From NCBI RefSeq assembly GCF_010548145.1, contig NZ_JAAGLN010000001.1, forward strand, positions 1 to 64,000: a stretch of 64,000 nt of DNA, read 5' to 3'. The notes beneath the pieces were generated by a model that was not told the DNA's origin, searched no databases, and was given only the letters and a program-made list of their open reading frames with translations. The stretch's first letter is position 1. Each line of letters starts with the position of its first letter. Shown here piece after piece: positions 27,873 through 64,000 of the stretch. The stretch comes from Streptomyces sp. SID10853 (GTDB taxonomy: Bacteria > Actinomycetota > Actinomycetes > Streptomycetales > Streptomycetaceae). The position numbers and the translations under genes were made by a program.

Positions 27873-27969
27873 GGCCGCGGGCCCCTGGCCCTGGATCGCG
27901 GTGAACGGCTTGAGTGTCCAGGCAGTGTCGGCGGCTGCCCGCTGAGCATCCGTTTCGAACCGGTTGAGG

Positions 27970-47824: not shown

Positions 47825-48883
47825 TCACGCCGGGGCGCGTTCGGATTTCGGTGTGCGAGACATCAGCTGAGTAGCGGCCTCAGCGACGCTGATCCGGCCT
47901 CGGACAACCTCGACCACGACCTCGGTAATGGGCATGTCCACTCCGTGCCGGCGGGCAAGCTCCAGGATGGATTCGGACGATTTGACGCCTTCGGCGGTCT
48001 GGCGGGTGGCGGCGGTGGCCTGTTCGAGGGTCAGGCCCCGGCCGAGGTGTTCGCCGAAGGTGCGGTTGCGGGACTGCGGTGAGGAGCAGGTGGCCGCGAG
48101 GTCGCCCAGACCAGCGAGGCCGGCCAGAGTCTGTGGATCGGCGCCCAGCGCCTGACCGAGGCGGATTGTCTCGGCGAGGCCACGGGTCATCAGCAGCGCG
48201 CTGGCGTTGTCGCCCAGTTCCATGCCGGAGGCGAGACCGATGGACAGGGCGATGACGTTCTTGACCGCGCCGCCGAGTTCGCACCCCACGATGTCGGTGT
48301 TGGTGTAGGGGCGGAAGGACGGCGTCATGCACGCGGCCTGGAAGGCAGCAGCGGTGTTTTCATCGCGGCTAGCGATGACGGAGGCAGCGGGCTGGCGGGC
48401 GGCTACTTCCTTGGCCAGGTTCGGGCCGGACACCACCACGATCCGCTCGGAGGGGACGCCGGTGACTTCGGTCATCACCTCGCTCATGCGCTGGCCGCTG
48501 CCGACTTCGATTCCCTTCATCAGGCTGACGACCACGGTCTGGGGTCCGATCAGCGGGGCCCATTGGGTGAGATTGGCGCGGAGCGACTGCGCGGGAATCG
48601 AGATGACCGCGTAGTCGGCACCCGCCATCGCGTCTTCCGCAGCAGTGGTCGCCGTCACCGAATCAGCCAGCCGGACGCCGGGCAAGTAGTCCGGATTCTC
48701 GTGGCACACGTTGATCGCGTCGGCGACTTCAGCCCTGCGAGCATGCAGAACGACCTCGTTGCCTGCATCGGCAAGGACCGTGGCGAAGGCTGTGCCCCAC
48801 GAGCCGGCAGAGAGCACAGCCACCCGGTGCACAGGCTCAGACCCACGGTGGTGGTTCGTGGGGTGGTGGTGTTCGGCCATCAT
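47825..48883 (-). CDS. GpsA-like NAD(P)-dependent glycerol-3-phosphate dehydrogenase
   Basis: 352 aa. GpsA features: VVSLMKGIE, VVVSGPNLAKEVAARQP, CELGGAVKNVIALSIG with the catalytic Lys, and AGLGDLAATCSSPQSRNRTF. However, the dinucleotide motif reads SAGSWGTAF where GpsA has GxGSWGT: the first glycine is replaced by serine. The N-terminus is His-rich (MMAEHHHPTNHHRG); a GTG at 48832 would remove it. It is the last gene of the precursor-TfuA-YcaO-methyltransferase strand, 51 bp after the methyltransferase, so a tailoring role (or a resident-enzyme duplicate) is possible. Confidence 0.85.
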   Translation of the reverse strand: MMAEHHHPTNHHRGSEPVHRVAVLSAGSWGTAFATVLADAGNEVVLHARRAEVADAINVCHENPDYLPGVRLADSVTATTAAEDAMAGADYAVISIPAQSLRANLTQWAPLIGPQTVVVSLMKGIEVGSGQRMSEVMTEVTGVPSERIVVVSGPNLAKEVAARQPAASVIASRDENTAAAFQAACMTPSFRPYTNTDIVGCELGGAVKNVIALSIGLASGMELGDNASALLMTRGLAETIRLGQALGADPQTLAGLAGLGDLAATCSSPQSRNRTFGEHLGRGLTLEQATAATRQTAEGVKSSESILELARRHGVDMPITEVVVEVVRGRISVAEAATQLMSRTPKSERAPA

Positions 48884-48934
48884 CGTCCCGCATCTCCCAA
48901 GCCCCCGTCCGGAGCGACGAGGCGCCCCGGCAGC

Positions 48935-49753
48935 CTACCGAGCATCCAGACACCGTCCGGGACAGTCCGTTGGGCGTCTCAAGGTGAGGGCGACGGCCCG
49001 ACGGCCGGCCAGTGTGGGGAGCTTCCTGCGGGCCTCGGCCAGCATCCGGTCCGCAGCCTGATCGCCCAGCTCGCGCCGCAGGTCGGTTTCACGGGTGATC
49101 CAAAGACGGTACAGGCGGCCCCACATGAGGGGCTCGGTAGGGCGTTCATCGACGGCCTCGACCAGGAGGCCCGCCTGCTCGGCCTGCTCGGTCCACGGAG
49201 CGCGGGCGCCGTGGCGCAGGGCCTGGGTGAGGACAGCGCGTGCTCCGGGGCGCAGGATGCGCTGCATCTCGCGCAGCGTGGCAGCGCGATCGGGCGCACA
49301 CCCGGCGGCGTCCACGCAGATGATCCCGTCAACGCTCTGATCCGCCAGGCCGGTGTTCGCCAGCGTGCCGACACGGAAGTCCGCCTGGCCGCGGGGAATG
49401 AAGCGAGTTCGGCGTGCGGTGGCCAGCTTCACTGCTGCCGGGGAGATGTCCACGCCGACGAGGTGGACCGCGAGTGCGCGAGCGACCCACAGTCCGACTC
49501 CGCCGCTGCCGCAGCCGAGGTCGGCCAGCGCGTGGCCGGGCGTCATGCGCAGCCGGGCGGACAGGATGGCGAGCAGCGGCCAGTCGCAGGAGCTGGATGC
49601 CCCGACTTCCACGGGGTGGTCGTCGCCCATGGCCTGTCCGTACAGCTGGGTGACGAGGCTGGTGCGGGAGCGTGCGGTGTGGAAGGCGTCGAAGCCGCTC
49701 TGAAGCTGTTGCTCGGTGGGTGACAGATGGTCTGTGTCGGTGGGGGTGTTCAT
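48935..49753 (-). CDS. Class I SAM-dependent methyltransferase of RiPP locus
   Basis: 272 aa. SAM motif I ADLGCGSGGVGLWVARAL, acidic VGVDIS, motif post I GIICVDAAG, and LREMQRILRPGARAVL. ATG 49753 overlaps the YcaO stop (ATGA), so it is coupled to it. Putative O- or N-methylation of the peptide product or an intermediate. Confidence 0.85.
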   Translation of the reverse strand: MNTPTDTDHLSPTEQQLQSGFDAFHTARSRTSLVTQLYGQAMGDDHPVEVGASSSCDWPLLAILSARLRMTPGHALADLGCGSGGVGLWVARALAVHLVGVDISPAAVKLATARRTRFIPRGQADFRVGTLANTGLADQSVDGIICVDAAGCAPDRAATLREMQRILRPGARAVLTQALRHGARAPWTEQAEQAGLLVEAVDERPTEPLMWGRLYRLWITRETDLRRELGDQAADRMLAEARRKLPTLAGRRAVALTLRRPTDCPGRCLDAR

Positions 49754-50886
49754 CGCAGGATGGACCTCCGGACGCGGGAGCGGGTGCCGGGGCAGATCAT
49801 CTTCACTGCCGCGTACGGCATGTCGGGTTTCGAGAGGTCTACGCAGATCGGCTGGTAGCCGGTGACGTGCTCGATGCGTGCCGCGACGGCCTGAGTCTGG
49901 TCGGCGAATGTGCCCTGCCACGGGGCATACGGAGCGACCTCGGTACTCCAGGGCCGCGCACCGGGAGTGTTTGTGGGCCGGGCTGGGGTGGTGTCGAAGA
50001 CCTGCTCGTGTGAGGGGAGGTCGTCCCGGGTGCCCGCGATACGAGTCAGCCGGGACTGCGCCGCCTCCGTCAGAGCGCGCGAGAGAGCGATGTGAGGATC
50101 GGTGTGGCATCCGGCCCCGGCGAAGGTCACGGGGTAGTCCTCGGACCAGATGTACGCCACGCACGTGGGTAGCCGGTAGGCGTTGGCGACGATCGCCAGA
50201 TCCAGATACATGCCGGCCGAGAGCAGCATGTCCACGAGCGTGCGGCAGTACGGGTCATCGACGGTTCCCGGATCGATGCGGGTACGCCGCTGCCCCACCA
50301 TGTCCTCGTCGGTTGCCAGAGCATCGCGCTCTACGATCTCGTACATGCCGTGGAGCATCGCTTCGTCGCGGGTGTTGCCACAGGCCAGCCCGTTACTGGA
50401 CGCGCGCAGGATGTCCGGCTGCCACGCAGGTCGTGCGCTCCGGCGGACCAGATCCAGCGGCACGGGCACCTCACGACCGCCGAGAGTCCGCCCCACACAC
50501 CACTCCAAGGCCACCGAGGCGAACGCTTCCGCGTGCTGGGGGGTTTTGAGCGGGAGCGCGGAGAGCGGGTACGGGGTCTCGATCTGCGCTGCGGGCCCGT
50601 ACTGGACGGCGTACATCGGCTGCTCGGTGTGCCACAGCTCGATGCCCTCCATGACCGCGGACAGGCGGGCGAGGAGGTCGGTGGCGCCCTTGCCCTGCGA
50701 GGCCGAGAGCGTGCGTGCGGCCGGCCGGATCGCGGTGAAGACCGGCAGGCCCAGGTAGTCCAGATCGGTCAGCCGGGCGACCCGTGTGATACCGAAGTGC
50801 GGCAGCAGCGGGACAAGAGCGGCCCAGGTGGTCTCCGGGCTGCGGGTGCGGACGGTCCCGTCGAGGATCACGTGGTCAGTGGGCAT
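49750..50886 (-). CDS. YcaO-domain cyclodehydratase/thioamidation enzyme
   Basis: 378 aa. YcaO ATP-binding features: ASQGKGATDLLARLSAVMEG (Ser-x-Gly-Lys-Gly type), EGIELWHTEQ, CGNTRDEAMLHGMYEIVERD and ALTEAAQSR. It lies between TfuA (11-bp overlap) and a methyltransferase (4-bp overlap). With TfuA, YcaO proteins install thioamides in peptide backbones (thioviridamide type, methyl-CoM reductase); azoline formation without TfuA is the other known use. Confidence 0.92.
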   Translation of the reverse strand: MPTDHVILDGTVRTRSPETTWAALVPLLPHFGITRVARLTDLDYLGLPVFTAIRPAARTLSASQGKGATDLLARLSAVMEGIELWHTEQPMYAVQYGPAAQIETPYPLSALPLKTPQHAEAFASVALEWCVGRTLGGREVPVPLDLVRRSARPAWQPDILRASSNGLACGNTRDEAMLHGMYEIVERDALATDEDMVGQRRTRIDPGTVDDPYCRTLVDMLLSAGMYLDLAIVANAYRLPTCVAYIWSEDYPVTFAGAGCHTDPHIALSRALTEAAQSRLTRIAGTRDDLPSHEQVFDTTPARPTNTPGARPWSTEVAPYAPWQGTFADQTQAVAARIEHVTGYQPICVDLSKPDMPYAAVKMICPGTRSRVRRSILR

Positions 50887-52102
50887 GGGCTCCCAGCTCC
50901 TCGGCGTTGGCGGACGGCTCGGTGAGGAACCCGACCATGAACGTCTTCATCTGCTCGACCGCTGCCTCCGCACCATTCAGCCCACGCGACCAGGCGGCAT
51001 CATCCAGGCCGGCGGCCGGACAGCCCCAGATGGTGCGCAGGGTGTGACGGGTGTACTCGTCGCTGACCGCCGCCGGGGTGAAGCCCGGCTGGGCCTGGGC
51101 CATGATCTTGTTCTCGGCCGTGTAGCGCAGGACTGCGGCCCGATCAGCTGCGCTCTCGCGTCCGAGCAGCTGTCGGACGGTGGCCGCATCGCGCAGGTCC
51201 GGCACGGGATGGAACAGGGCGTACGCGGGCACCTCGCACCGTCCGGCCGTGAGCGCGGTGATCCGCTCGTCCAGCGGGGCCGGCCCCGATCGATGCTGGA
51301 GGTAGGCGAGCCACACGGCGGGGAAGTCGGGGTCGAAGAGCTGCTGGTAGGCCAGGCGTACCGCTGGCTGTTCCGGTTCACCGACGAAGGAGTTCGCCCA
51401 CTTGAGAAGGTAACCGGAGGTGCTGCGTGCCCCGCTGGCGGTTCTGGCCGGTTCCGCAGGACGGCCGAGGGCGATGCGGAGAGCGTCCTGGGCATCACGC
51501 CGCTTGAGGTCTCCGAAGTGAGGATCCCGTTCGCGCTTGGCCTTCAGCCATTCCCAGAGCGCGCTGGCGTCGTGCTCGCGGCATACGGCCCGGACGGCGA
51601 CCGCCGAGCGTTGCGAGTAGTGGACCGCGCTGAGCGCATAGAGCAGTGAGTCTCCCTGGCCGGTTTCCACCACGCTCTCGTTCTGGGCGAGTTCGATGAT
51701 GTGCCGCAGGTTCACCATCGGCCAGGACAACGCCCGCAAGTCGCCGGTGGGCGCTTGAGCAACGGCCACTTCGCCGTCACCATCGAGGTCGCCGTTCGCG
51801 TACGCGCTGTAGATGCTGCCGACTCCGAGCATCCCGAAGACGCTGAGTTCGGCCGCACGCAGGGCTCCAATGCTCGCGGCGCCGATGACGCGCACGCCCC
51901 GGTCCAGGGCGTGCAGGATCTCCTTGTGCCGCAGCGCCGGAGCCTGGTGATAGACACCGTCGATGATGAGCAGCGTGTCCCGCTCACCGATCGCGGTGTC
52001 GAAGAGGGCGCCGTGGCGCACCGGCGGCAGCACCCGGATCTTCGGGTGCTGGAGCTGCGGGTCGTCGCGGTTCAGGGTCGGTCCGACGAAGACGTGGATC
52101 AC
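50876..52102 (-). CDS. TfuA-like protein, thioamidation partner
   Basis: 408 aa from GTG 52102 (VIHVFVGPTL). N-terminal TfuA domain: IHVFVGPTLNR, LLIIDGVYHQAPALRHKEIL, GVRVIGAASIGALRAAELS, FGMLGVGSIYSAYANGDLDG. Beyond about residue 210 a long extension is not recognised. TfuA proteins support YcaO enzymes by sulfur delivery or allostery in thioamide formation. Stop overlaps the YcaO start by 11 bp. Confidence 0.92.
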   Translation of the reverse strand: MIHVFVGPTLNRDDPQLQHPKIRVLPPVRHGALFDTAIGERDTLLIIDGVYHQAPALRHKEILHALDRGVRVIGAASIGALRAAELSVFGMLGVGSIYSAYANGDLDGDGEVAVAQAPTGDLRALSWPMVNLRHIIELAQNESVVETGQGDSLLYALSAVHYSQRSAVAVRAVCREHDASALWEWLKAKRERDPHFGDLKRRDAQDALRIALGRPAEPARTASGARSTSGYLLKWANSFVGEPEQPAVRLAYQQLFDPDFPAVWLAYLQHRSGPAPLDERITALTAGRCEVPAYALFHPVPDLRDAATVRQLLGRESAADRAAVLRYTAENKIMAQAQPGFTPAAVSDEYTRHTLRTIWGCPAAGLDDAAWSRGLNGAEAAVEQMKTFMVGFLTEPSANAEELGAHAH

Positions 52103-52136
52103 TGCACACCTGCCTGCCGTGAGTGTCGGAGCGGAG

Positions 52137-52167
52137 AGTGCCCGCACCCAGGTCAGGTGCGGGCACT
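52137..52167 (-). terminator. Hairpin between precursor gene and tfuA
   Basis: Perfect 12-bp stem AGTGCCCGCACC (52137-52148) and its complement (52156-52167), 7-nt loop, no T-tract. It sits between the precursor stop (52199) and the TfuA start (52102). Position suits partial termination or RNA protection, letting the peptide be made in excess of its enzymes. Confidence 0.75.
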
Positions 52168-52198
52168 TCCGGTCAGGGTCCTGGGGAGGTCAGGACCG

Positions 52199-52321
52199 TC
52201 AGACGTCGCCCTCGTTCTCGACGTCCTCGATGTGGACCACGGTCGACGGGTCGATCAGGGCGGCGGGGTCAGCCGCATCGACGCGCTGTGCGGCGATCTG
52301 GGACTTGGCCTTCTGCTCCAT
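52199..52321 (-). CDS. RiPP precursor peptide, 40 aa (candidate)
   Basis: Short gene upstream of tfuA on the same strand. ATG 52321 is the first start after an in-frame stop; GAGAGA lies about 16 nt upstream, a weak ribosome site. Starts MEQKAKSQIAAQ and ends DPSTVVHIEDVENEGDV; no cysteine, two-residue ST at 26-27 and one histidine at 30. No lasso or lanthipeptide features. Size, position next to TfuA/YcaO and an acidic C-terminus suit a thioamitide-like RiPP precursor, but the core cannot be fixed from sequence. Confidence 0.75.
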   Translation of the reverse strand: MEQKAKSQIAAQRVDAADPAALIDPSTVVHIEDVENEGDV

Positions 52322-52538
52322 GGGAGTTCACCAATCTCTCTCGTGACTCGACAAGGTGTGCCGCTCTGCGCGGCCACCGCCTGCACCCACATCACAGTGC
52401 GTACGAGGGGGAGCCCGGAAGAGGCCAGGCGTTGCCTCCGGTTGCCTCAGGTTGCCTCGGTTGCCTTCCGCGCTGTTCTCGCTCCGGGCCGGGCGCGGTG
52501 AGGACAGACTGAGGTGGGCCCCGGCGGGAGGACACGAC
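52322..52538. promoter_or_regulatory. Divergent promoter with GGTTGCCTC repeats
   Basis: Between precursor (left) and regulator (right). Four consecutive copies of about GTTGCCTC (52432-52468: GTTGCCTCCG, GTTGCCTCAG, GTTGCCTCG, GTTGCCTTCC) run in the same direction at 9-10 bp spacing, about 75-105 bp before the regulator's ATG. Likely operator for that regulator. Confidence 0.6.
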
Positions 52539-53915
52539 ATGGGCAGCAGCACCCTTCTTCAAGAACGCCACCCCCTCGGGCAGGTGCTGATGCTGTACGG
52601 CTGGACGTCGCCGGACTTCCTGCGGCGGGTCGCAGCCAAGCACCGCGCGCTGGGCTTCGGGTCGCTCGCCGCACGCAAGGAGCAGGTCAGCCGCTGGACC
52701 CGCCCGGTGAAGCCGCCGGTCCCGGACGAACACACCCAGCTGGCCATCGCCGCGGTACTGGGCATCCCCGCACGCATGGTCATCGCTCTGGGCTGGCCGC
52801 ACTGGCTCCTTCTCGCCCTGCGAGACGACAGCGTCGTCTGGGAGTCGCCCTGGACCGCACAGGGCACCATCTATGCACTCGACGATGTCGGAGGACCTGT
52901 GGTCGATCGCCGCGGTTTCCTGGCCGCTACGACCAGCACGGTCGCCGCGGTACTCGCCCAGTGGGCCGCCGCCCACCCCGCCCCCGCCGCAACCACCGGA
53001 CGCCGCATCGACATGGGCGTCCCCGACCGGCTCGACTCCCGCCTCCACGACCTGCGTCACCTGGACGACGAGCTGGGCGCCGACCACGTCTACGACGCGG
53101 CCCGTGCGGAGCTGCAACTCATCACCCGTCTCCTGCGCGAGAGGTCATACAGCGAGGAGACCGGCCGACGGCTGTTCGCCAGTGCCTCCGAGGCCGCGCG
53201 ACTGGCCGGCTGGTGCTCGTACGACAGCGGCGACCTGGCCGCATCGGAGAAGTACTTCGCCACCTCCATGCGGGCGGCAGCCAGCTCCGGGACCAAGACC
53301 GCCGGCGTCATCGCGGCCGCATTCTGGGCCAACGCCCGATACGGCTCCCCGGCCTCGCCGGATCCCCGCGGGGCCCTGGACCTCCTCGACGTTGCACTGG
53401 CCCAACGAGCCGAGATTCCCTCTCCACGCGTGCTGACCATGCTGTACATCAGAACAGCCCGTGCCCACTCCATCGCCGGAGAACCAGCTGCGGCCTACCG
53501 AGCGATCGACACCGCGCTCGACGCTTACGGCAGCGGCGTCCCGGCGGGCGAGGACCTGCCGCAGATGTACTGGATCAACACGGGTGAAATCCTCCAGGCC
53601 GCAGGATCATCTGCACTCAGCCTCGGCGACCCGGCCCGGGCCTTGCGGTATTTCACCGAGGCCGCCACCCACAACGACCCGTACGACTCGACAAAGGAAC
53701 CGCGGGGAACGGCCATCTACCTCGCGCGGAAGGCGGCAGCCTACCGGGAGTTGGGCGACCTCGACGGTGCCGTGCACACGGCCGAGGAGGCAGTGGCCCT
53801 GATGGGCGGTGTCAGTTCAGCGAGGGGCAACAGCACCCTGGGCGACCTCCGAGACGGTCTCGACCGGCACCGCACCGTCCCCGCAGTGGCAGCCTTCCTG
53901 GAAGCCACGGGCTGA
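52539..53915 (+). CDS. HTH-TPR-type transcriptional regulator of RiPP locus
   Basis: 458 aa. N-terminal XRE-like domain (QVLMLYGWTSPDFLRRVAAK, VPDEHTQLAIAAVLGIPARM), a DRRGFLAATTST segment, then TPR-like helices (about 190-450) as in the large Streptomyces regulators of this type. ATG 52539 with GGGAGGA. Divergent from the precursor, so likely controls it. The GGTTGCCTC repeats lie in its promoter. Confidence 0.82.
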   Translation: MGSSTLLQERHPLGQVLMLYGWTSPDFLRRVAAKHRALGFGSLAARKEQVSRWTRPVKPPVPDEHTQLAIAAVLGIPARMVIALGWPHWLLLALRDDSVVWESPWTAQGTIYALDDVGGPVVDRRGFLAATTSTVAAVLAQWAAAHPAPAATTGRRIDMGVPDRLDSRLHDLRHLDDELGADHVYDAARAELQLITRLLRERSYSEETGRRLFASASEAARLAGWCSYDSGDLAASEKYFATSMRAAASSGTKTAGVIAAAFWANARYGSPASPDPRGALDLLDVALAQRAEIPSPRVLTMLYIRTARAHSIAGEPAAAYRAIDTALDAYGSGVPAGEDLPQMYWINTGEILQAAGSSALSLGDPARALRYFTEAATHNDPYDSTKEPRGTAIYLARKAAAYRELGDLDGAVHTAEEAVALMGGVSSARGNSTLGDLRDGLDRHRTVPAVAAFLEATG

Positions 53916-54411: not shown

Positions 54412-55017
54412 ATGCCTCGCTCCAGCCGCTTTCCACCCATATCTTCAGCAATATGCATTGCTGGCTCGCTTGCAGCGCTGACGGCCGGTTGTTCAAGCTC
54501 CGCCAGCAGTCCGTCAGACGCGGCGTCCACACGGCGGCCCCACTCCGTCTCATCCGGTATCACCGAGACGGCTGTGCCGAGCGCCGACGTTTCTTCCGCT
54601 GGGCCAAACACCCTGCCCCCAAAGAACGTTGACCGTATTGCGCGCCGCTTCACGACCGCATACGCACAACACGATGCCCGCGACGGCGCAGACAGGTCGT
54701 ACGCGGATGCCGGCGCCCGAGCGGCCAAGCTGGCGTCGGGTGAGCTGGTGGGCATCCTCGCCCAGAAGCGGCCGAGCCAGGATGCGCCGTGGGCGACCCT
54801 TCGCGCCGAGGGGGCCCGGCAGACGGCGAAGATCACATCTGCCGTACTCCCCGACGGCGCTCCACCCGTAAGCAGGTCCTCCGCGCTGGTCCGGGTCGGC
54901 TACGTCCTCACGACAACACCGACGTCCGGTCAGCAGCGCCACAGCGACGAGCAGCTTGTCTTGCGTATGGAGCACACCGCCCAAGGCTGGCGTGTCACTG
55001 CCCTCCCCTGGGCGTGA
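54412..55017 (+). CDS. Lipoprotein of the conjugation operon
   Basis: 201 aa from ATG 54412. Lipobox LTAGC (Cys 27) after a hydrophobic signal. Mature part is alanine-rich then forms an alpha/beta domain (ITSAVLPDGAPPVSRSSALV...EHTAQGWRVTALP) like the NTF2-fold conjugation proteins. First of the T4SS-type operon; stop is 7 bp before the next start. Confidence 0.75.
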   Translation: MPRSSRFPPISSAICIAGSLAALTAGCSSSASSPSDAASTRRPHSVSSGITETAVPSADVSSAGPNTLPPKNVDRIARRFTTAYAQHDARDGADRSYADAGARAAKLASGELVGILAQKRPSQDAPWATLRAEGARQTAKITSAVLPDGAPPVSRSSALVRVGYVLTTTPTSGQQRHSDEQLVLRMEHTAQGWRVTALPWA

Positions 55018-55024
55018 GGTCGAC

Positions 55025-56002
55025 GTGAACAGAGGTACACAGCTCGGCTTGGGGTTGTTCGCGGCCGTGGTCATTGCAGGTGTCGGCCTGCTGGTGACGT
55101 TCGGCGGTGCTGACAGCGCCTCTGCCCAAGAGGCCGGTCCTGGCGGCGGCATCACCACAGATGCACCTGTCCCCGGGTGGGTCCGCGGGCTCATCAACAA
55201 GCACGCAGGGGAGTGCCCGCAGGTCACAGCTTCACTTCTCGCCGCACAGCTCTACACGGAGTCGAACTTCAACCCCAAGGCGAAGTCCCCTGCGGGCGCC
55301 CTCGGCATCGCGCAGTTCATGCCGGCGACCTGGGCGGAGCGGGGTGTGGACGGCGACGGTGACGGGATCAAGGACATCCGCAACCCGGCGGATGCCATCG
55401 CCGCTCAGGCCAAGTACGACTGCACATTGGCCGAGGAGGTCAAGGCCGTTCCCGGGGATTCCACCGACAACATGCTCGCGGCGTACAACGCGGGCGGCGG
55501 TGTGGTGATCAAGTTCGGCGGCATTCCGCCCTACCCCGAAACCCGGAACTACGTGCGGAACATCCGCCAGTTGGCGTCGACGTGGGCCGATGCGGTCAAT
55601 CCCGACGCCCCCGCTGGCAAGGGCCCCGCTCGCGCGATCTCCGCCGCGAAGACAGCTCTGGGCACCTGGTACCGGTGGGGCGGCGACTGCGTCTCGCCCT
55701 ACAAAGGCCAGGGCGGGTGCGATTGCTCGTCCCTCACCAAGATGGCCTGGGCCGCCGCAGGCGTGAATTTGCCCCGGGTCACCTACGACCAGGTCCATGC
55801 GGGAACGGCGGTCAAAAGCGTCTCCCAACTGAGGCCGGGCGATCTCCTGTTCGCCATCCCCGGTAGCGCCGGCCCTGAACACGTCGGGATGTACATCGGT
55901 GACGACCAAGTCATCGAGGCTCCGCACACAGGCGCCCAAGTGCGGATCAAGCCACTCAGCTTCTGGACACCGCAGATCATCGCGATGCGACACGTCGGCT
56001 AA
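55025..56002 (+). CDS. Bifunctional lytic transglycosylase / NlpC-P60 hydrolase
   Basis: 325 aa from GTG 55025 (VNRGTQLGLGLFAAVVIAG); the frame upstream overlaps the lipoprotein gene. TM anchor at about 9-29; lytic transglycosylase domain with catalytic Glu in YTESNFNP and GALGIAQFMPATW; C-terminal NlpC/P60 with Cys in CDCSSLTKMAW and His in EHVGMYIGDD. Opens peptidoglycan for the conjugation channel (VirB1-like role). Confidence 0.92.
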   Translation: MNRGTQLGLGLFAAVVIAGVGLLVTFGGADSASAQEAGPGGGITTDAPVPGWVRGLINKHAGECPQVTASLLAAQLYTESNFNPKAKSPAGALGIAQFMPATWAERGVDGDGDGIKDIRNPADAIAAQAKYDCTLAEEVKAVPGDSTDNMLAAYNAGGGVVIKFGGIPPYPETRNYVRNIRQLASTWADAVNPDAPAGKGPARAISAAKTALGTWYRWGGDCVSPYKGQGGCDCSSLTKMAWAAAGVNLPRVTYDQVHAGTAVKSVSQLRPGDLLFAIPGSAGPEHVGMYIGDDQVIEAPHTGAQVRIKPLSFWTPQIIAMRHVG

Positions 56003-56049
56003 TCCTGACAAAAAACCCATTCTACGCATTAAGCACTAAAGGACTTTCG

Positions 56050-56388
56050 ATGTACGACCTCCTCTCTGCCGCGGCCGATCCATCCCTCCACACCACTCTC
56101 GCCTCAGGGGCTGACGTCGTGACCGGCGTCAAGCCGGACTGGGGCCCCTTCGGGAAGCTGGGAGGGACGGCGAAAGTACTCCTCGGGGTTCTGGCAGCCG
56201 TCGTGCTCGCCATCGGACTCGGCGCCTTCATCGCGGGGATCGGCAAATCCAAAGGGTGGTTCGGGGAGGGGCGATCCACGATGGAAAGCTCACACGGCAA
56301 GGGCCTGATGGTCGGCGGACTGGTGGTCATCTTCCTCGTGGCATCCCTCGGGACGATCACCACCATCACCTACGGCATGGGCGTGTGA
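56050..56388 (+). CDS. Two-TM small membrane protein (VirB2/TcpE-like candidate)
   Basis: 112 aa. Two hydrophobic helices (GTAKVLLGVLAAVVLAIGLG; GLMVGGLVVIFLVASLGTIT) with a charged loop between. Position after the NlpC gene in T4SS operons corresponds to a pilin-like or TcpE-like protein; similarity itself is weak. Confidence 0.6.
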   Translation: MYDLLSAAADPSLHTTLASGADVVTGVKPDWGPFGKLGGTAKVLLGVLAAVVLAIGLGAFIAGIGKSKGWFGEGRSTMESSHGKGLMVGGLVVIFLVASLGTITTITYGMGV

Positions 56389-56391
56389 CCT

Positions 56392-57693
56392 GTGCGTACT
56401 GGAAAACGTTGCTCTGCAAGAGACGCCAGGTCGAGCAGATCGTCGGCGAGGCTCTGGGGCGTCGCGGCCGGCGCGGTGGCTGTCGTCACCGCTGCCGGGG
56501 TGATCGTCAGTCTCTCCACCGGTAGTACGTCTGCTCCCTCCCCCACCACTACTTCGCCCTCGCACGCGGCATCGGTACCGAGCAAGATGCGCGTACGCGT
56601 CCTGCACGGCGTGCCTGTGGGCTACCCGCACACCCAGGCCGGCGCGAAGGCGGCAGCCTCGAACTACACCACCGTCAGTGGCAGTGCCAAGTTCCTCACT
56701 GACAAGGGGGCGCGCCACCGCGCCGTGTCGGTGATGGCTGCTGACGGCACCACGGGCACGGCCATCGAGAAGGCCGACCACACTGCTGGTCAGGAAGTCG
56801 GCACGCTCCGCGGCGACAACACCAAAGTCCTTCCGAAGCAGGCCATCTCCCGTACCGGTGTGCTCTCTGCCCACGTACTGGGCTTCGACGCACATGACGC
56901 CATGGTCCGGCTGTGGACAACGACAGTCCGGGGCAGCACAGCCGGACACAAGACACCGAGAGACACCTTTCAGTCGGTAACAGTCACGCTCACCTGGCAG
57001 TCCAATGACTGGAAACTGAAAGACAGCTCGATCACGAGTGGGCTGGTCGCGCCGATCGACGAGCGACAGGCTTCGAACGTCACCGGCGACTTCTCCGACT
57101 ACACACCTGCGGCTGCAGCAGATCCGGTCCTCAGTGGCACGGCAGGGAAGGACGGGTTCCCTGCCGCCTACGCACGGAGCAAGAGCGGCGCCTTCGCCGC
57201 CGCGACCAGCGCCACGATGCTTTACGGCGACCCGCGATTCTTCACGGATAGCAACTGGCGGCACCGGATGCTGGCCGCTACCGCCGCCCCGGGGATCCTC
57301 GACACCGCCTCGTCCGATGCGGATTCGACGGCGCATCTGGTCACGGAGAACCGCGGGGTCGGAGCCGATGGCAAGACCGCAGACGGCAGCGAGCTGATCA
57401 CGCGGACGACAGCACTTGGGGTGCGGTCTGTGTCCTATTCGGACCAAGCCGCCAGCGTGGAGCTGTGGACCGCGTCCGTAGGCGGAATTGCCGGTAAGGA
57501 CGAGACGCAGCGCCCACAGATCGCCTTCCTCCGTATGACCGTTGACCTCACCTGGGCCGACGGCACCTGGAAGACCACCGCAGTAGCGCCTTCCGAACCG
57601 CTCGTGCCCTCGCCGCCGAACGCGGAGGAGGCAGCCTCGGCTGGCAGCTTCGCGGAAGTGGGAGGTGTCAGCAATGCGCCTTCGTTTGCGTGA
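56392..57693 (+). CDS. VirB8/TcpC-like conjugal transfer protein
   Basis: 433 aa from GTG 56392. One TM (about 21-45), a Ser/Thr/Pro linker, and two NTF2-like domains (YPHTQAGAKAAASNYTTVSG to about 210; and from about 235) as in TcpC of ICE/plasmid T4SS. Links the inner membrane complex. Overlaps the following gene by 20 bp. Confidence 0.72.
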   Translation: MRTGKRCSARDARSSRSSARLWGVAAGAVAVVTAAGVIVSLSTGSTSAPSPTTTSPSHAASVPSKMRVRVLHGVPVGYPHTQAGAKAAASNYTTVSGSAKFLTDKGARHRAVSVMAADGTTGTAIEKADHTAGQEVGTLRGDNTKVLPKQAISRTGVLSAHVLGFDAHDAMVRLWTTTVRGSTAGHKTPRDTFQSVTVTLTWQSNDWKLKDSSITSGLVAPIDERQASNVTGDFSDYTPAAAADPVLSGTAGKDGFPAAYARSKSGAFAAATSATMLYGDPRFFTDSNWRHRMLAATAAPGILDTASSDADSTAHLVTENRGVGADGKTADGSELITRTTALGVRSVSYSDQAASVELWTASVGGIAGKDETQRPQIAFLRMTVDLTWADGTWKTTAVAPSEPLVPSPPNAEEAASAGSFAEVGGVSNAPSFA

Positions 57694-59284
57694 AGATGCC
57701 CCGGGGCTCCTGGTTGTCGAGCGGGGTACGCCAGGCCGCTGGGGGCGGCGTATCCAGGCCGTGGCGTGGGTCAACGTGATCATCGGCTTCATCCTCGTGC
57801 CGTCCGCGGTGGCCAACCCGTTCTGCTACATCCCGATGGTCTGTAAGGCGAAAGCGGCGATCGACTTCGTCAACGACCCCTTGGGCTTCCTGCTCCAGAA
57901 GCTCACCGAGGCCAACATCTGGTTTCTCCGCAAGATGCTGGACCTCATCCAGAACACGAGCAAGATCGACCTGACGAGCACTGGCTTCCTCAAGCAATAC
58001 GCGATCATCTTCGCGGCCTCCAGCCTGCTCACGGTGGCCTTGTGGCTCATCGCTGTGGCTAAGCGCGCGGTCCGCGGCGTCGCGCTGACGACTGCCGTCT
58101 CCGAGGCTGTCGGGTTCCTGGTCCTCCAGTTCGTCGTCAACGCCTTGACCCCCGGAGCAATTGCTCTTCTCATGAGGGCAATTGACGAAGTCACGGCCAT
58201 ATTCGAGCCGTATGCGATCCGGAACTTCAAGCCCTTCCTGGAGAACCTCCTCAAGATCATGGCGGGGGACCCCACGCAGGGCGTGGGGCAGCTGCTGGTC
58301 GTCAACCTGATCATGCTGTTCGGTGCTCTGCTGATGTGGATCGAGCTTCTGATCCGCAGTGCCGCCATCTACGTGGCCGTTGCGCTCGGCCCCCTCGTGA
58401 ACGGGGGCCTCGTGGATAGGGACTTGTGGGGCAAGAGCAAGAAGTGGGCCGGAGCGATCTTCGCGATCGGCTTGAGCAAACCAGTACTCTTCGCACTGCT
58501 CGGCCTGGGCGGGGCGGTTCTCAGCGACTCGTCGGGGAAGATGTCCGACTCGGTCTCCAAGACGCTGGTGGGCGCGCTGATCCTGCTCCTGGCGGTGTTC
58601 GCGTCCGGCACCCTCTACCGGTGGGTGCCAGCTTTCGGCGACGAAATGGCCCGGCTCCACCACGACCGCAAGAACGCACAGTCCTCGGGTCCTGCCTCGG
58701 TTATTGACGGCCCCGGCCAGCACGCGAACCGGGCGATCAACTCCCGTGTACAGGACTCGTTGGTCGGCGGCACCTCGAAGGCGACAGCGTCGAAGATGGG
58801 CGGCGGCACAGCCGCGGCCGGTCCGATCGGTGTGGCAGCGGCTGTGACGAAGGCCGGCGTCGACATGGCGAAGAACAAGGCCATGAACTCCCCCGGCATG
58901 CAGGGCGCTGACTCCGCCCAGGGCGGCTCCGGGCAGAGCCAGGACCAGCAAGGCGGCGACGATGCAGGGTCCTCCGGTGCGCCGGCAGCTGCCCGCCCAG
59001 AAGGGGCGACCTCCGACCCGGTCGCCAGCTCGCCTCCGGACTGGTCCTCAGCGGGCAGCCACGCAGCTTCAGGACGTTCCCCGGCCACCAACGGGACACC
59101 GAGTACGGCACAGCCGCTCTCGCCGCAGGCTCCCACCCCGGCGACGCCGCCTCCGGCACCAGCCCCTCCTGCCTCCACATCAGGAACCACTTCGGGCTCC
59201 GGGCCCTCGATCACGCCCACGCCGCCGCCGCGGCCGTCGGGCGGCCAGGCTCCCGACAAGCAGACCCCCAGCAAGGATCAGTGA
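57674..59284 (+). CDS. VirB6/TrbL-like multi-TM conjugation protein
   Basis: 536 aa from ATG 57674 (a GTG at 57665 is possible). Eight or so TM helices in the first 330 residues (VALWLIAVAKRAVRGVALTT; LIMLFGALLMWIELLIRSAA; GALILLLAVFASGTLYRW) as in TrbL/VirB6. Long Pro/Ala/Ser/Thr-rich, probably unstructured C-terminal tail (from about 430), common in actinobacterial versions. Confidence 0.8.
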   Translation: MRLRLREDAPGLLVVERGTPGRWGRRIQAVAWVNVIIGFILVPSAVANPFCYIPMVCKAKAAIDFVNDPLGFLLQKLTEANIWFLRKMLDLIQNTSKIDLTSTGFLKQYAIIFAASSLLTVALWLIAVAKRAVRGVALTTAVSEAVGFLVLQFVVNALTPGAIALLMRAIDEVTAIFEPYAIRNFKPFLENLLKIMAGDPTQGVGQLLVVNLIMLFGALLMWIELLIRSAAIYVAVALGPLVNGGLVDRDLWGKSKKWAGAIFAIGLSKPVLFALLGLGGAVLSDSSGKMSDSVSKTLVGALILLLAVFASGTLYRWVPAFGDEMARLHHDRKNAQSSGPASVIDGPGQHANRAINSRVQDSLVGGTSKATASKMGGGTAAAGPIGVAAAVTKAGVDMAKNKAMNSPGMQGADSAQGGSGQSQDQQGGDDAGSSGAPAAARPEGATSDPVASSPPDWSSAGSHAASGRSPATNGTPSTAQPLSPQAPTPATPPPAPAPPASTSGTTSGSGPSITPTPPPRPSGGQAPDKQTPSKDQ

Positions 59285-59287
59285 CGC

Positions 59288-60814
59288 ATGTCGACTCGTA
59301 CGTATCAGTTCGGAAAGCACCGCCCGACGGGCCTGGTAGGACACCGCGACCTCGGCGAGCAGGTGGTACTGGGCGGCGGAGCGGCCACCGGCATCCTGCT
59401 CGGCTACCTCTTCAGCGGCGCTACCGCGGTTGCCGCGATCGGACTGGTGCTCCCGATCCTGATTGCCCTCGTCATCGTCTACGCCCCGTATCGGCCGACG
59501 GGCACCTCTCAGCGGCGCACGCTCTACCGCTGGTGGAGGATCAACCGTTATCACCGTAAGGCGATCCGCCGAACGGGCGGTGTGTGGACGTCGCCGGCCT
59601 TCGAGGCCGGTGTGGGTCGCGACGGCACTCCTCCAGATGCTGCTCTGGCCGAGCCGGAAGGCGTTGCGGGCATGACGTGGGTGCCGGTCACGGTCCGTGG
59701 CCAGAAGGCAGTCGTTGTTCTCCAACCGGAGGCCGGCTGTGTGACGGCCACACTGGAGGTTGCCTCCCCTGGCCTGGGTGGCAAGGAGGTCGCGGAACAG
59801 GTCGTCGCCTTGGAGCGCTGGGGTGAACTCCTCGACGCCTTCGGCAACGTGGAGGAGCACCCGGTCAAGAGGATTCAGGTCCTCGCCCGGCAGATGAAGT
59901 CGGACCCCTACGCCCACCAGCGGTTCATCGCACAGCGCGACGAGTCGGCGGCGACGGCCGACGCTCCGCAGTGGCTGAAGGACTCGTACGACGTGCTGGC
60001 CAATGCCGTATCCACCTCGGCGGAGGAACATCGGTATTACATCACCATCCACGCGCGGTTCACCCGCGATCTGGCAGCCGAAGGAGCCGCCCGCGGATCC
60101 GGTGACGAGGGGGTCGCTGCTGCGCTGGCCTCGTACTTGGAAGAACTGTGGTCTCGCGCGGAGGACGCCGACCTCTCGGTGATCGCGCCTCTGGACGAAG
60201 GCCGGATGACCGCGTTCATCCGCAATTCCTACGACCCGGACCACGCCATTTGGGACACGGACCTCCCGCAGGCACACGCCTTCCCCCGCAATGTCGACGT
60301 CCGTAACGGCGCGCACGTCGCCACCCGCGCCGCAGGGTCCACCGACACCTGGGTCCACGCCACAGCGGCTGTCGTCGGATGGCCCACTACCCCAGTCGGC
60401 CCGGACTTCCTGTCGCCCCTGCTGATTGGGATGCCCGACGTGATCCGCACCATCTCGATCACTCAGCAGCTGGAGCCGAACGACAAGGCCGTGGAACGCA
60501 TGCTCGCGGAAGACACGAACAACCAGGCGGAGATGCACCGCGACCGCCAGCGAGGCAAGAACATCGACCCCCGCGACCAGATCGCAGCGAACGCCACAGG
60601 TTCGCGGGGCATGTCCCTGGCCTCGTCGGGCGCGGCCGGGTCCGCCACCGTCGGGTACATCACCATCTCCGCGCGTAGCGCCGAAGAGCTAGAGCGCACG
60701 AAGCGCACGACCCGCTCCCGTGCCCGCAACGCCCACCTCCAGATCGAGTGGCTCGACCTCGAACACGCTCGCGCCTTCGCGACCACACTCCCCCTCGCGG
60801 GAGGCATCAAGTGA
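59288..60814 (+). CDS. SCO6880-family protein (PrgI + N-terminal VirB4-like)
   Basis: 508 aa. Two N-terminal TM helices (VVLGGGAATGILLGYLFSGA; LPILIALVIVYAPY) as in VirB3/PrgI, then a soluble part like the VirB4 N-terminal domain. Family known in Streptomyces from SCO6880, always beside a VirB4-type ATPase. Stop overlaps the next GTG (GTGA). Confidence 0.88.
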   Translation: MSTRTYQFGKHRPTGLVGHRDLGEQVVLGGGAATGILLGYLFSGATAVAAIGLVLPILIALVIVYAPYRPTGTSQRRTLYRWWRINRYHRKAIRRTGGVWTSPAFEAGVGRDGTPPDAALAEPEGVAGMTWVPVTVRGQKAVVVLQPEAGCVTATLEVASPGLGGKEVAEQVVALERWGELLDAFGNVEEHPVKRIQVLARQMKSDPYAHQRFIAQRDESAATADAPQWLKDSYDVLANAVSTSAEEHRYYITIHARFTRDLAAEGAARGSGDEGVAAALASYLEELWSRAEDADLSVIAPLDEGRMTAFIRNSYDPDHAIWDTDLPQAHAFPRNVDVRNGAHVATRAAGSTDTWVHATAAVVGWPTTPVGPDFLSPLLIGMPDVIRTISITQQLEPNDKAVERMLAEDTNNQAEMHRDRQRGKNIDPRDQIAANATGSRGMSLASSGAAGSATVGYITISARSAEELERTKRTTRSRARNAHLQIEWLDLEHARAFATTLPLAGGIK

Positions 60815-62247
60815 CTGCCCTGCTCGACCTCGCCCCGCTGTCCCCGATGCACGAGACGGTGCGCCGCCCGCTCTACACGGAGACGACCACCAGCCAAGCC
60901 CTGTACCTTCCGATCGCCCCGCCGACCCTCGGGACCTCGGGAGCGATCATCGGCCGGGAGCTGTACTCGGGCAAGGCATTCATCTACTGCCCCTTCTCGG
61001 CGTTCGGTGACGGCTTGCCCGGCGGGAACATGATGATTATGGGCGAATCCGGCCGGGGGAAATCGACGCTCGCCAAGACCTACACCGCCCGCCAGATCCG
61101 CCTCGGCCGCCAGGTGGTCGTACTCGACACCAAGGAACAGAAGGAGCGTGAGGAAGGCGAGTGGGCGGCGCTCGGCCGCTCGCTGACCGGCAAGGCCCCG
61201 GTGAAGTTCGCTCCGGGCGGCGGCTCCGGCGCCTCCTGCATCAACCCGATGGACCCCGCCATCGCGGGCAAACGGCAGATCGAGCTGGTCCGCACGATCG
61301 TCGAACTCGGCCTGGGAAAGCCGCTGGACGAGTTCGCCGGCTCCGCACTGCGTATCGCGATCCGCCGGGCCCACCAGCGGACAGGCAGCCTCGGGCGCAC
61401 GCCGGTCCTGACTGACGTCGCCGCCGCGCTCCGGTCCCCGGAGGAAGCCGACGCCACGGCCAAGCAACGGAGCTGGGACGAACTCCTGGGTGACGGCCTG
61501 GAAGTGTCCTATGTGCTGGACCGGCTCTGCGGGAGCGAACAGGACGCGACCGGCGACCTCACCGGCATGCTCGACGGCCCGACCAGCCTTGGCGTGGACC
61601 TCGACGCCAACATGATCGTCTTCGACCTGACGAAGGTCCCCAGCGGCGGCGTGGCCATGACGATCCTCGTCGCCGTGATCTCGGTCTTCCTCGAAGAGGT
61701 CTGGCTGCGTCCGCTGTGCGAGTGCGGAACGGAGCCGAATCAGCACGAGCGCGTCGTGGTCGACGCTAACTCGGGTGCCTGGGAACTCGGCTCGAACACG
61801 GAATCAGGCTGCCGCCGCTACACCCAGCGCAAGCGCATCCTTGTCTGCGAAGAAGCGTGGCACATCCTCGGAACGCCTCAACTGGCCTCGCTCTTGGAAA
61901 AGTTCCTCAAATTCGCGAGGGGCTACGGACTTTCCTGCATCTTCATCGTCCACCACCTCTCTGACATTGACGACAGCCCGGAGACCCAAGCCGCTCTGAA
62001 AATGGCGGACACCGTCGTCATCTACTCGCAGAAGAAATCCGAGGCCGAGGCGACGATGTCCCGGCTGGGCCTGCCGTCCTGGACGGCGGAGCACATCATG
62101 CGCCTGCGCCGCGGTATCGCGCTGTGGAAGGTCGGAGAGGTCATCTACCCCGGCGTCCAACACCTCTTGGTCGAAGCCGAACAGCACCTGTGCTTCTCCT
62201 CAGGCGCGATGACCGACCTCACCAGCACCTCCCCGGACGCCGAATGA
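60811..62247 (+). CDS. VirB4-like conjugation ATPase
   Basis: 478 aa from GTG 60811. Walker A MGESGRGKST (about 74-83), VVVLDTKEQKEREEGEW, Walker B-region RILVCEEAWHIL, and switch FIVHHLSDIDDSPE. This is the motor half; its N-terminal half is encoded by the preceding gene, so VirB4 function is split between two proteins. Energises the T4SS. Confidence 0.9.
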   Translation: MTALLDLAPLSPMHETVRRPLYTETTTSQALYLPIAPPTLGTSGAIIGRELYSGKAFIYCPFSAFGDGLPGGNMMIMGESGRGKSTLAKTYTARQIRLGRQVVVLDTKEQKEREEGEWAALGRSLTGKAPVKFAPGGGSGASCINPMDPAIAGKRQIELVRTIVELGLGKPLDEFAGSALRIAIRRAHQRTGSLGRTPVLTDVAAALRSPEEADATAKQRSWDELLGDGLEVSYVLDRLCGSEQDATGDLTGMLDGPTSLGVDLDANMIVFDLTKVPSGGVAMTILVAVISVFLEEVWLRPLCECGTEPNQHERVVVDANSGAWELGSNTESGCRRYTQRKRILVCEEAWHILGTPQLASLLEKFLKFARGYGLSCIFIVHHLSDIDDSPETQAALKMADTVVIYSQKKSEAEATMSRLGLPSWTAEHIMRLRRGIALWKVGEVIYPGVQHLLVEAEQHLCFSSGAMTDLTSTSPDAE

Positions 62248-62630
62248 ACAGGTACCACTACCTCCCCGCCACTGACCCTTTCCACACTGATTCGGAGCGC
62301 GCACCCTCCATGACTATCGCCGCCACCGAGACCACGTTTCCGGCTGACGAGCACGCGGTACGCCAGGACATCGACCAGCTGCACGCCGATGCCCTCCAAC
62401 TCGCTCGCCGCACGAAGGCACTGGCCACGGCACTCGACCACGGCGACTACTCCGCCGCCGGTGGCCGCGTCCGTACGGCCGTCGCCCACTTCTGGCGAGC
62501 GGCGGAAGATCTCCACAGCGCCTTCCACACCGCTCCACCGCGCTGTGCTGGCCCTGAAGCTTCGCTGTCCCGGCTCTGCGGCCGACGGATGCGCTACCTC
62601 GCCACCCGGGCCGCTAGGAGGACCGAGTAG
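62244..62630 (+). CDS. Small hypothetical T4SS-operon protein
   Basis: 128 aa from ATG 62244, overlapping the VirB4 stop. Helical (HAVRQDIDQLHADALQLARR...HFWRAAEDLHSAFH), basic C-terminus. No TM. Probably an accessory transfer protein; not recognised. Confidence 0.65.
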   Translation: MNRYHYLPATDPFHTDSERAPSMTIAATETTFPADEHAVRQDIDQLHADALQLARRTKALATALDHGDYSAAGGRVRTAVAHFWRAAEDLHSAFHTAPPRCAGPEASLSRLCGRRMRYLATRAARRTE

Positions 62631-62887
62631 TGGGGTTCATACCGAGCGCGATTCCCCTGGCCCTCTACGCCATGACCGCCGTATGCGCGGTGGCTCTGGT
62701 GACGCTCTGGCTCCTGACGAACCGCCGTCGACGCAACGCCGGATTCGCGGACAGGGGGCGGCTCAAACGTCAGATGTCGGCGAAGGCGATCTTGAAAGCC
62801 ACGGAGATCCGCCCCTCCCTTACGCGCGGCCATGCCGCCCCAACATCCGCTGTGAGCCTCGCGAAGAGCCCATCCGCCGGTTCTTGA
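62630..62887 (+). CDS. Short membrane-anchor protein before VirD4-like gene
   Basis: 85 aa from GTG 62630 (GTAGTGG overlap with preceding stop). One TM (ALYAMTAVCAVALVTLWLLT), then a basic NRRRRNAGFADRGRLKRQMS segment and AKAILKATEIRPSLTR, which resembles the N-terminal membrane part of TraG/TraD coupling proteins. The ATPase part follows as a separate gene in another frame, so the coupling protein looks split. Confidence 0.7.
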   Translation: MGFIPSAIPLALYAMTAVCAVALVTLWLLTNRRRRNAGFADRGRLKRQMSAKAILKATEIRPSLTRGHAAPTSAVSLAKSPSAGS

Positions 62888-62924
62888 CCCATCCCCTTCA
62901 GCACCCCTCGCTCCGGAGCACGTT

Positions 62925-64000
62925 ATGCGCCACACCCTCGATCCTCACGACTTCGGCTACTCGCTCGGCACCTCGCAGCGCCCGAAGGGCGTCGATCTCT
63001 GGTCCCGCGCCGACAAGGCATGCCGGGTCATCGGCCCGATGGGCAGCGGAAAGACGCTGAGGTTCTTCGCCCCGCTGATCCGCAAGTGGGCCGGGCCGGT
63101 CCTGGCCACCTCGACCAAGCCCGATCTGGTCGAACTGACCCTCGACGCCCGGCGGCAGGGCGGCCGCCCCGTCGCGGTCTTCGACCCGCAGAACATCGCT
63201 CCGAGCCTCCCGCGCTTCCGGTGGACGCCTATTAATGGGGCAGCCGACACGGAGGTGGCGATGATGCGCGGGAAGTCGTTCGTCGCGGGCTCGCGCACCC
63301 CCAACAGCGCAGCACAATCCAGCGAGGGCAGCACCTTCTACAAAGGGCAGGCTGCCAAGATCCTGGCTGCCTTCCTCCACGCCGCAGCCCTCGACGGCGC
63401 CTCCCTCGAATGGGTACTGCGGTGGGCCCGCAAGCTCACCGACCCGGCGCCCCTCGGCATCCTCGACGCTCACCCCGGCGCCGGCCCCGGATGGGCGGAC
63501 ATGCTTCGCACGGCCACTACCGGTGACAGCCGCACCGTCGGCAACACCGCCACGTCCCTCGATGCGGCTCTCGAACCCTTCATGCACCAGTCGGTGATCG
63601 ACTCCCTCCAGGGAGACGGCGAGGACCCCACGGACTTCGACGCCTTCCTCGACGCCGGAGGCACTCTCTACCTTCTAGGCAAGGACTCGGAGGTGAACAG
63701 CGTCGCACCGCTGACCACCGCGATAGCCGAAGATCTTCTGGACCTCGCGGAGGAACACGCCCTCGTCTCCCCGGCCGGGCGGCTGGACCCCCCTCTCCTC
63801 GCAGCCCTGGACGAGGCACCAAACATCGCGCCCATCCCCAGCCTCCGTCAGCGCGTGGCCGACGGCCGGGGCCGTGGCATCACGGTCATCTACGGCCTCC
63901 AGGCATGGGCGTCTGCTCGTGCCCGCTTCGGTGAGGACACCGCCAAGGAGCTGGCAGCCTTCACCAACAACGTCATCGTCCTGCCCGGGGACAAGGATCC
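62925..64000 (+). CDS. VirD4/TraG-like coupling ATPase (partial)
   Basis: At least 358 aa; 3' end outside the window. ATG 62925 with GGAG at 62913-62916. No TM. Walker A IGPMGSGKTLRFF (about 37-45), TKPDLVELT, and Walker B ALDEAPNIAPIPSLR with VIYGLQAWASARARFG. Coupling protein that brings DNA to the T4SS. The membrane anchor seems to be encoded by the 62630 gene. Confidence 0.88.
   Translation, partial: MRHTLDPHDFGYSLGTSQRPKGVDLWSRADKACRVIGPMGSGKTLRFFAPLIRKWAGPVLATSTKPDLVELTLDARRQGGRPVAVFDPQNIAPSLPRFRWTPINGAADTEVAMMRGKSFVAGSRTPNSAAQSSEGSTFYKGQAAKILAAFLHAAALDGASLEWVLRWARKLTDPAPLGILDAHPGAGPGWADMLRTATTGDSRTVGNTATSLDAALEPFMHQSVIDSLQGDGEDPTDFDAFLDAGGTLYLLGKDSEVNSVAPLTTAIAEDLLDLAEEHALVSPAGRLDPPLLAALDEAPNIAPIPSLRQRVADGRGRGITVIYGLQAWASARARFGEDTAKELAAFTNNVIVLPGDKD

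Follow-up and report, generated by a model that had tools for sequence, protein, structure and literature searches.

The first 64,000 nucleotides of contig NZ_JAAGLN010000001.1 of Streptomyces sp. SID10853 (hereafter the window, meaning this whole stretch) contain a small operon that appears to encode a ribosomally synthesized and post-translationally modified peptide (RiPP) and that ends with gpsA, an additional gene for glycerol-3-phosphate dehydrogenase. With a rough probability of 0.6, we regard gpsA as the immunity gene of this operon, and GpsA itself, or the supply of glycerol-3-phosphate, as the target of the peptide. Strict linkage alone cannot separate an immunity gene from a tailoring gene. 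Retention after loss of the other genes is informative, because a tailoring enzyme is useless without its substrate, whereas an immunity gene is still useful; gpsA, which is kept after the biosynthetic genes have been lost, is therefore read as an immunity gene. That a spare GpsA is kept alone suggests that the peptide attacks GpsA or its pathway. The original prediction, made from the window alone, had listed the GpsA-like gene and given it no interpretation.

On the immunity reading, for which we infer thioamidation, methylation, toxicity and target of the product, the 40-amino-acid (aa) peptide would be a RiPP precursor with the leader motif K[SA]x at its N-terminus, a conserved acidic C-terminal core (VVxxEDVExE) and a short tail, and YcaO and TfuA would most likely swap backbone oxygen for sulfur in the core. 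The methyltransferase (MT) would then methylate the core, and the carrier would be protected by the last gene, gpsA, through an additional, functional glycerol-3-phosphate dehydrogenase. The most likely point of inhibition by the product is housekeeping GpsA or a step that additional glycerol-3-phosphate would relieve. The genes lie on the minus strand in the order precursor-tfuA-ycaO-MT-gpsA, with a regulator of the NsdA type divergent from them:

52199..52321, minus strand: putative precursor peptide gene, 40 aa, subgroup II (ending in ...VVHIEDVENEGDV), from the open reading frame (ORF) and the family motif.
50876..52102, minus strand: tfuA, with the TfuA Pfam domain; the ORF opens at 52147, but family homology makes GTG 52102 the likelier start.
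49750..50886, minus strand: ycaO, with the YcaO Pfam domain; best PDB sequence match MJ1094, an archaeal YcaO.
48935..49753, minus strand: class I S-adenosylmethionine-dependent MT gene (Methyltransf_11); nearest solved relative by sequence MitM.
47825..48883, minus strand: gpsA-type glycerol-3-phosphate dehydrogenase gene (NF000942), an extra copy and the proposed immunity gene.

The start of ycaO overlaps the end of tfuA, and the start of the MT gene overlaps the ycaO stop. The 40-aa ORF and the same-strand order of tfuA, ycaO, MT and GpsA-like genes had been predicted before, and both are confirmed by the ORFs and by Pfam/NCBIfam scores (TfuA, 137.7 bits; YcaO, 204.7 bits; Methyltransf_11, 61.8 bits; GpsA against NF000942, 448.7 bits, with a cut-off of 257).

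Judged from the sequences, gpsA appears to have survived repeated loss of the biosynthetic genes. In 392 Streptomyces genomes, full-length gpsA of the operon type was found 17 times on its own (in 16 genomes and as a solitary copy in the window's own genome) and 10 times in operons. The tfuA and MT searches, which are the sole control for this count, gave a different picture: full-length tfuA of the family lies once outside a full operon (L050) and 13 times inside (one of these, in G416, cut by a contig end), and the full-length operon MT was found 0 times outside and 12 times inside (387 genomes). Fisher tests of the gpsA counts against those for tfuA and MT gave p values of 7e-4 and 2e-4, which are exploratory and come from loci that are not independent. 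Inspection covered 18 solitary loci, i.e., these 17 and L162 of subgroup III. None of them has tfuA or ycaO in the approx. 6 kb that precede gpsA or the approx. 4 kb that follow it, and remnants of MT and/or of c4/HTTM, a gene pair that follows gpsA in one subgroup, adjoin gpsA in 10 of the 18. In the eight solitary loci with an MT remnant away from contig ends, the MT is truncated or frame-broken without exception; in L203, for example, the flanking MT and HTTM genes are broken and gpsA is whole. On the tree, solitary gpsA genes are scattered among operon copies on up to 17 separate branches (FastTree, support unchecked), which include L152 and the broken L087.

These counts depend on several decisions. 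The gpsA search used a main-clade profile at E <= 1e-142, with separation checked on the tree. The MT remnant beside it placed the copy of G569 (559.9 bits) among the operon-type copies; the five next-best copies (approx. 550-555 bits) group with housekeeping genes. L208 (G413) stands at a contig start and was called solitary because its genome has no family tfuA; its MT stretch is present and was not counted as broken. The second, terminal gpsA copy of G591 was dropped from the counts, as was the MT of G612, which lies beside another type of ycaO-tfuA cluster (L215) on a contig that ends where gpsA would be. In that cluster (G612:C64), the MT relative (53%) is divergent from the ycaO-tfuA pair (41% and 35%). 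The contig-cut MT of G416 was left out of the MT count, and the broken gpsA of L134, which is the L087 copy, stands outside the 18 solitary loci.

In a second species (L205, genome G293), 8.5 kb of the window's element are present with 94-96% nucleotide identity, and window positions 49167-53354 are replaced by approx. 1.1 kb that contains a fragment of an IS4/5-type transposase (PF13340). The stretch lost there comprises most of the MT gene, all of ycaO, tfuA and the precursor gene, and part of the regulator gene. The gpsA of L205 is intact and 96% identical to that of the window, with a ratio of nonsynonymous to synonymous substitution rates (dN/dS) of 0.155. L205 also shares the region of genes of the type IV secretion system (T4SS) type up to window position 60515, where L205 as fetched ends; among 18 loci compared at no less than 85% identity, it is the only one that shares the window's element.

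Plasmids present a similar pattern. Among 72,556 plasmid records, 27 carry a ycaO of the family (threshold, at least 52% identity), and gpsA adjoins it in 27 of 27, as judged by comparison of coordinates, with NZ_CP109338 checked separately. No gpsA match occurs on the records of the five ycaO relatives that come next (40-44%). Family ycaO at this threshold is missing from nine other Streptomyces plasmid records that do have a gpsA match, and all nine contain operon remnants, including a ycaO piece in L219, L220 and L226 (L219 and L226 look like one lineage). Seven of these nine gpsA genes are full-length, each beside operon remnants. There are also five plasmid records of other genera without family ycaO; on a Micromonospora plasmid, gpsA adjoins a gene for a lysophospholipid acyltransferase. 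The 27 plasmid records and the element shared with a second species support the horizontal spread that had been suggested from the T4SS genes of the carrying element, and these genes were themselves recovered, next to the regulator:

52539..53915, plus strand: NsdA-family HTH-TPR regulator (NF053720), start set by homology.
54956..64000, plus strand: region of T4SS-type genes of the carrying element, with SLT+NLPC_P60, a TraG-like P-loop ATPase and a TraG/TraD coupling protein, and three further long ORFs without a Pfam match.

The divergent regulator, described earlier as of HTH-TPR type, belongs to the NsdA family (261 bits against NF053720, cut-off 75), and homology moves its start from 52356 to near 52539. 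A clear, divergent relative (45%) is found in L126, and weaker TPR matches in L036, L039, L047 and L129. The G+C content of the window, in 2-kb steps, is 0.66-0.75 up to 26 kb and 0.61-0.66 over 26-44 kb; the step at 26000-28000 may mark one end of an inserted element. A tRNA search of the window found none. On the minus strand at 30016-31173 there is a gene with a GmrSD-type restriction N-terminal domain, and approx. 13 kb beyond the window end (L058:13025-14017, contig C111) lies a gene with an MvdD-like pre-ATP-grasp domain (PF21068), which may belong to a RiPP cluster of graspetide type close to this element.

Residence on plasmids or elements resembling integrative and conjugative elements (ICEs), together with the lack of shared export or protease genes, leaves room for an addiction-type role. 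As the original prediction had stated, there is no transporter, protease or decarboxylase among the genes common to at least six loci or among the annotated window neighbours, a comparison in which genes present in only a few loci are mostly unannotated. It is possible, if doubtful, that the operon is a plasmid- or ICE-borne addiction or bacteriocin-like system, in which an acidic thioamidated peptide, perhaps never exported, poisons GpsA and the spare, resistant GpsA is the antidote. Cells that lose the element would then die or be outcompeted, and cells that keep gpsA alone would escape. Such a peptide would, to our knowledge, be without precedent among ribosomal peptides in being directed at GpsA, with the target revealed by the spare enzyme.

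Within the operon family, the association of gpsA with the other genes is strict. TfuA searches of 394 genomes of the window's family, of genome contigs and of 392 Streptomyces genomes yielded 28 loci that form one TfuA clade, at approx. 42-54% identity to the window. A tfuA fragment on a 5-kb contig (L040) and duplicates of L035 and L038 (L043 and L051, respectively) were left out. All but one of the 28, from Actinosynnema, belong to the window's own family, and a phylum-wide TfuA search of 396 genomes added one distant locus, G926, which was used as an outgroup. The order tfuA-ycaO-MT-gpsA is the same wherever the genes are present, and all 24 loci in which the MT is retained and the contig runs on have gpsA. 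In two operons, which are possibly in early decay, ycaO looks truncated (L037) or tfuA is frameshifted (L049).

Both the gene counts and the residues describe an extra, catalytically intact copy of a housekeeping enzyme within the cluster, as is characteristic of self-resistance genes. The window's genome has three gpsA genes: the operon copy, the solitary copy and a housekeeping copy, recognised by neighbours that on visual inspection look like leuC, leuD and ddl. Twelve relatives were searched; the ten with the operon have, besides one copy per operon, a single other gpsA (and G256 also an operon remnant), and G064 and G185, which have no gpsA at the tfuA locus, hold one each. Residues K208, N209, D261, R272 and N273 are unchanged in 21 GpsA proteins compared and invariant in a 56-row alignment; we take Lys-Asn to be catalytic and Arg-Asn to be the phosphate site. 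In the 25 closest pairs of operon and solitary GpsA, dN/dS is 0.12-0.27, which points to purifying selection on operon-type gpsA. Of the 43 rows for operon, solitary and orphan copies, 42 have Ala at residue 98, whereas 31 of the 34 others have Ser there. Only residues 26, 98 and 152 are candidate differences from housekeeping GpsA, and their states also occur in some other actinobacterial housekeeping GpsAs; as resistance sites, they are a lead only. In the 56-row tree, operon copies form two separate clades, a main one and, next to Streptomyces housekeeping genes, one of subgroup III, and a single clade for all operon-type GpsA was rejected by the approximately unbiased (AU) test (p-AU 0.0225), with the operon-type group set by genome position plus the orphans falling into it. 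The same test without orphans gave a far smaller p, which is not meaningful since the orphans sit inside the clades. Because the operon copies occupy two places in the tree, gpsA was probably acquired or replaced by the operon at least twice. The solitary subgroup III gpsA of L162 (G515:C869) is flanked by a gene resembling class II tRNA synthetases and by a gene for 376 aa that has no Pfam match and has a relative beside the solitary gpsA of L199.

This linkage, with gpsA as the last gene of the core operon, would also fit a biosynthetic GpsA, acting either as a source of glycerol-3-phosphate for the peptide or as a reductase of some group on the peptide, and in a few remnants the loss or breakage of the other genes has indeed extended to gpsA. 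Such a role is nevertheless unlikely: purifying selection acts in many genomes without nearby biosynthetic genes, and the checked catalytic and phosphate-site residues match housekeeping GpsA and so give no sign of a new peptide substrate. Alternatively, since the enzyme is an ordinary one, has intact residues and persists alone, gpsA might be carried on plasmids as a passenger or for a general metabolic benefit, for example in membrane-lipid supply. We find this quite improbable in view of its presence beside all 27 family ycaO genes on plasmids and of the operon scars beside all seven full-length solitary plasmid copies; joining the operon twice would also be unexpected of a passenger.

Several observations, however, weigh against gpsA as an immunity gene. 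Retention of the copy where biosynthesis has been lost, as seen in self-resistance genes, has exceptions: the remnants L129, L050 and L216 have no gpsA, the gpsA of L134 is broken in a genome with a full operon, and in two of the nine Streptomyces plasmid loci (L227 and L228, which are alike) gpsA is truncated beside MT remnants. Seven of the 18 solitary genomic loci have no remnant, and L208 cannot be judged at its contig start. The gpsA search recovers near-complete copies only, leaving broken solitary copies uncounted. A smaller GpsA tree did not reject a single clade (p-AU 0.129), and the operon has no recognisable ThiS-like sulfur carrier. Retention could also reflect the usefulness of a second GpsA in itself, and we know of no chemistry, resistance phenotype or inhibitor for this system.

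The 40-aa ORF is, by its conservation, a real gene and a member of a conserved precursor family. It runs from 52321 to 52199 with an ATG start and reads MEQKAKSQIAAQRVDAADPAALIDPSTVVHIEDVENEGDV; its GC content at codon positions 1/2/3 is 0.73/0.37/0.90, a profile of the usual Streptomyces coding pattern. An ORF with the motif K[SA]...D[VT][ED]x[ED] precedes tfuA in 26 of the 28 orthologous loci, or in 27 with L034, where the contig starts and only the end of the precursor is visible. The sole full-length locus without it, L050, also has no MT and no gpsA. The motif was found in 0 of 28 antisense controls, before 0 of 9 outgroup tfuA genes and exactly 26 times in 1.0 Mb of the same loci on both strands. 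As the motif was written from the family, the count of 26 shows specificity rather than discovery. In the first family plasmid record that was opened, a hypothetical gene at the precursor position reads VDLSKSELAAQAEPVVMETPGGIAAITVPSSVVRIEDVEQEGGVA and is a member of the peptide family. Absence of a conserved short ORF upstream of orthologous tfuA genes had been named as what would speak against a RiPP; the ORF is present, and the RiPP assignment, with a conserved short precursor at the operon start beside TfuA and YcaO, has held up. In four outgroup loci (L053, L054, L055 and L056), tfuA is preceded by a different precursor-like ORF, ending like DFEGLFADAPLVITDSEVRD.

Three subgroups differ in the tail: ...VVVAVDVEDEE or similar in subgroup I, ...VRIEDVEDEGP and relatives in the window's subgroup II, and ...VVRSEDVEQEECYTF (...EECYTF) or EECFTF in subgroup III. 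The absence of Cys noted earlier for the precursor is therefore correct for the window and for subgroups I and II, whereas the tails of subgroup III contain Cys. When three close pairs were compared, no amino-acid change and a total of 4 synonymous changes were found in the last 16 codons, against 4-8 amino-acid changes per pair in the first 27-28 codons. Since the last 16 codons are fixed while the front part varies, the C-terminal part is probably the mature core. It is most improbable that the ORF is some other conserved small protein while YcaO-TfuA modify another protein, as they can in the case of archaeal McrA (PMC5589413, cited, like the papers below, for the parts covered): shared genes for a protease or transporter are indeed missing, but the position of the ORF, its fast-changing N-part, fixed C-part and subgroup-specific tails, and its absence together with MT and gpsA in L050 speak for a precursor.

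The modifying enzymes are also conserved. YcaO and TfuA are adjacent, with residues conserved within the family, among them acidic residues of YcaO in the alignment. The best solved sequence match of YcaO, MJ1094, presumably makes thioamides. YcaO-TfuA pairs have been reported to do so (PMC5589413, PMC13174530, PMC13185837), TfuA being the protein that releases sulfide from ThiS-COSH (PMC13185837). The AlphaFold model of TfuA has a mean predicted local distance difference test (pLDDT) of 83 and a predicted template modelling score (pTM) of 0.55. Its N-terminal domain matches Methanosarcina TfuA (PDB 6xp8, Foldseek E 2.6e-12), and its C-terminal helical part of approx. 200 aa gave no PDB match (other listed Foldseek matches, E > 0.4). 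Ser80 is found in all 15 other aligned TfuA proteins and is replaced by Gly in L050.

In 10 subgroup I loci, gpsA is followed by c4 and a gene for an HTTM-like membrane protein (PF05090, E 8e-4, below the cut-off), and in L048 and L049 of this subgroup by c4 or a piece of it. The pair (L036:12368-13562 and equivalents) occurs after gpsA in subgroup I only. It was considered as a general immunity pair and rejected, because subgroups II and III, and with them the window, do not have it and several solitary loci have it only in broken form; it is intact in one plasmid remnant, L222.

Thioamitides, i.e., thioviridamide-like peptides, are defined by a C-terminal Cys for an aminovinylcysteine (AviCys)-type ring, a decarboxylase and further tailoring genes. 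They have YcaO and TfuA in common with the window operon, but beyond this pair the window family shares only MT, gpsA and, in one subgroup, c4/HTTM, and its core is acidic and without Cys in subgroups I and II. With no Cys in the window peptide and no matching genes among the shared ones, a standard thioamitide was rejected, in agreement with the original prediction. Thiovarsolins and the std (SNKEWQE) family resemble the window operon in that YcaO-TfuA act on a short precursor, and std, like the window family, has a conserved C-terminal motif (PMC13174530). The window family, however, has no core repeats, and no heme-oxygenase-like, MNIO or carbamoyltransferase gene was found among the genes shared across loci, on which this comparison rests, single-locus genes being unannotated. 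A thiovarsolin type was also rejected, as there is no core repeat and the shared neighbours are MT and gpsA. By gene content, the window family matches none of the characterised YcaO-TfuA classes given in the part of PMC13174530 covered.

The closest likeness may be with RiPPER networks (Santos-Aberturas 2019, PMC6511847), in which the same tfuA-ycaO pair occurs in operons that begin with a short precursor, often missed by annotation. That study predicted many YcaO-TfuA RiPPs, and its Network 2, whose 25 Streptomyces peptides open a conserved operon, may contain the window peptide family. The main text of PMC6511847, as far as covered, mentions neither the term "methyltransferase" nor a gpsA-type gene, whereas the window operon has both. 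PMC8120280 counts 613 TfuA cluster families, and a family of the window type is not described in the parts covered. A literature search joining TfuA, glycerol-3-phosphate dehydrogenase and Streptomyces found nothing, and a related-term search joining TfuA with glycerol-3-phosphate found nothing among the matches listed. YcaO-TfuA RiPPs as such are known; hence, what may be new is the family by gene content, with a testable new candidate target. If true, this would name GpsA, the entry to phospholipid synthesis, as the target of an uncharacterised class of thioamidated peptides from genomes alone. The operon resembles target-copy self-resistance as in the glyceraldehyde-3-phosphate dehydrogenase (GAPDH) of pentalenolactone clusters (PMC8510958), where an extra copy of a central-metabolism dehydrogenase also lies in the cluster. 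GpsA is not mentioned in the part of PMC8510958 covered, and a copy of the window type, in contrast, also outlasts its cluster. Such retained solitary copies can help to tell immunity genes from tailoring genes, a distinction that is usually hard to draw from sequence.

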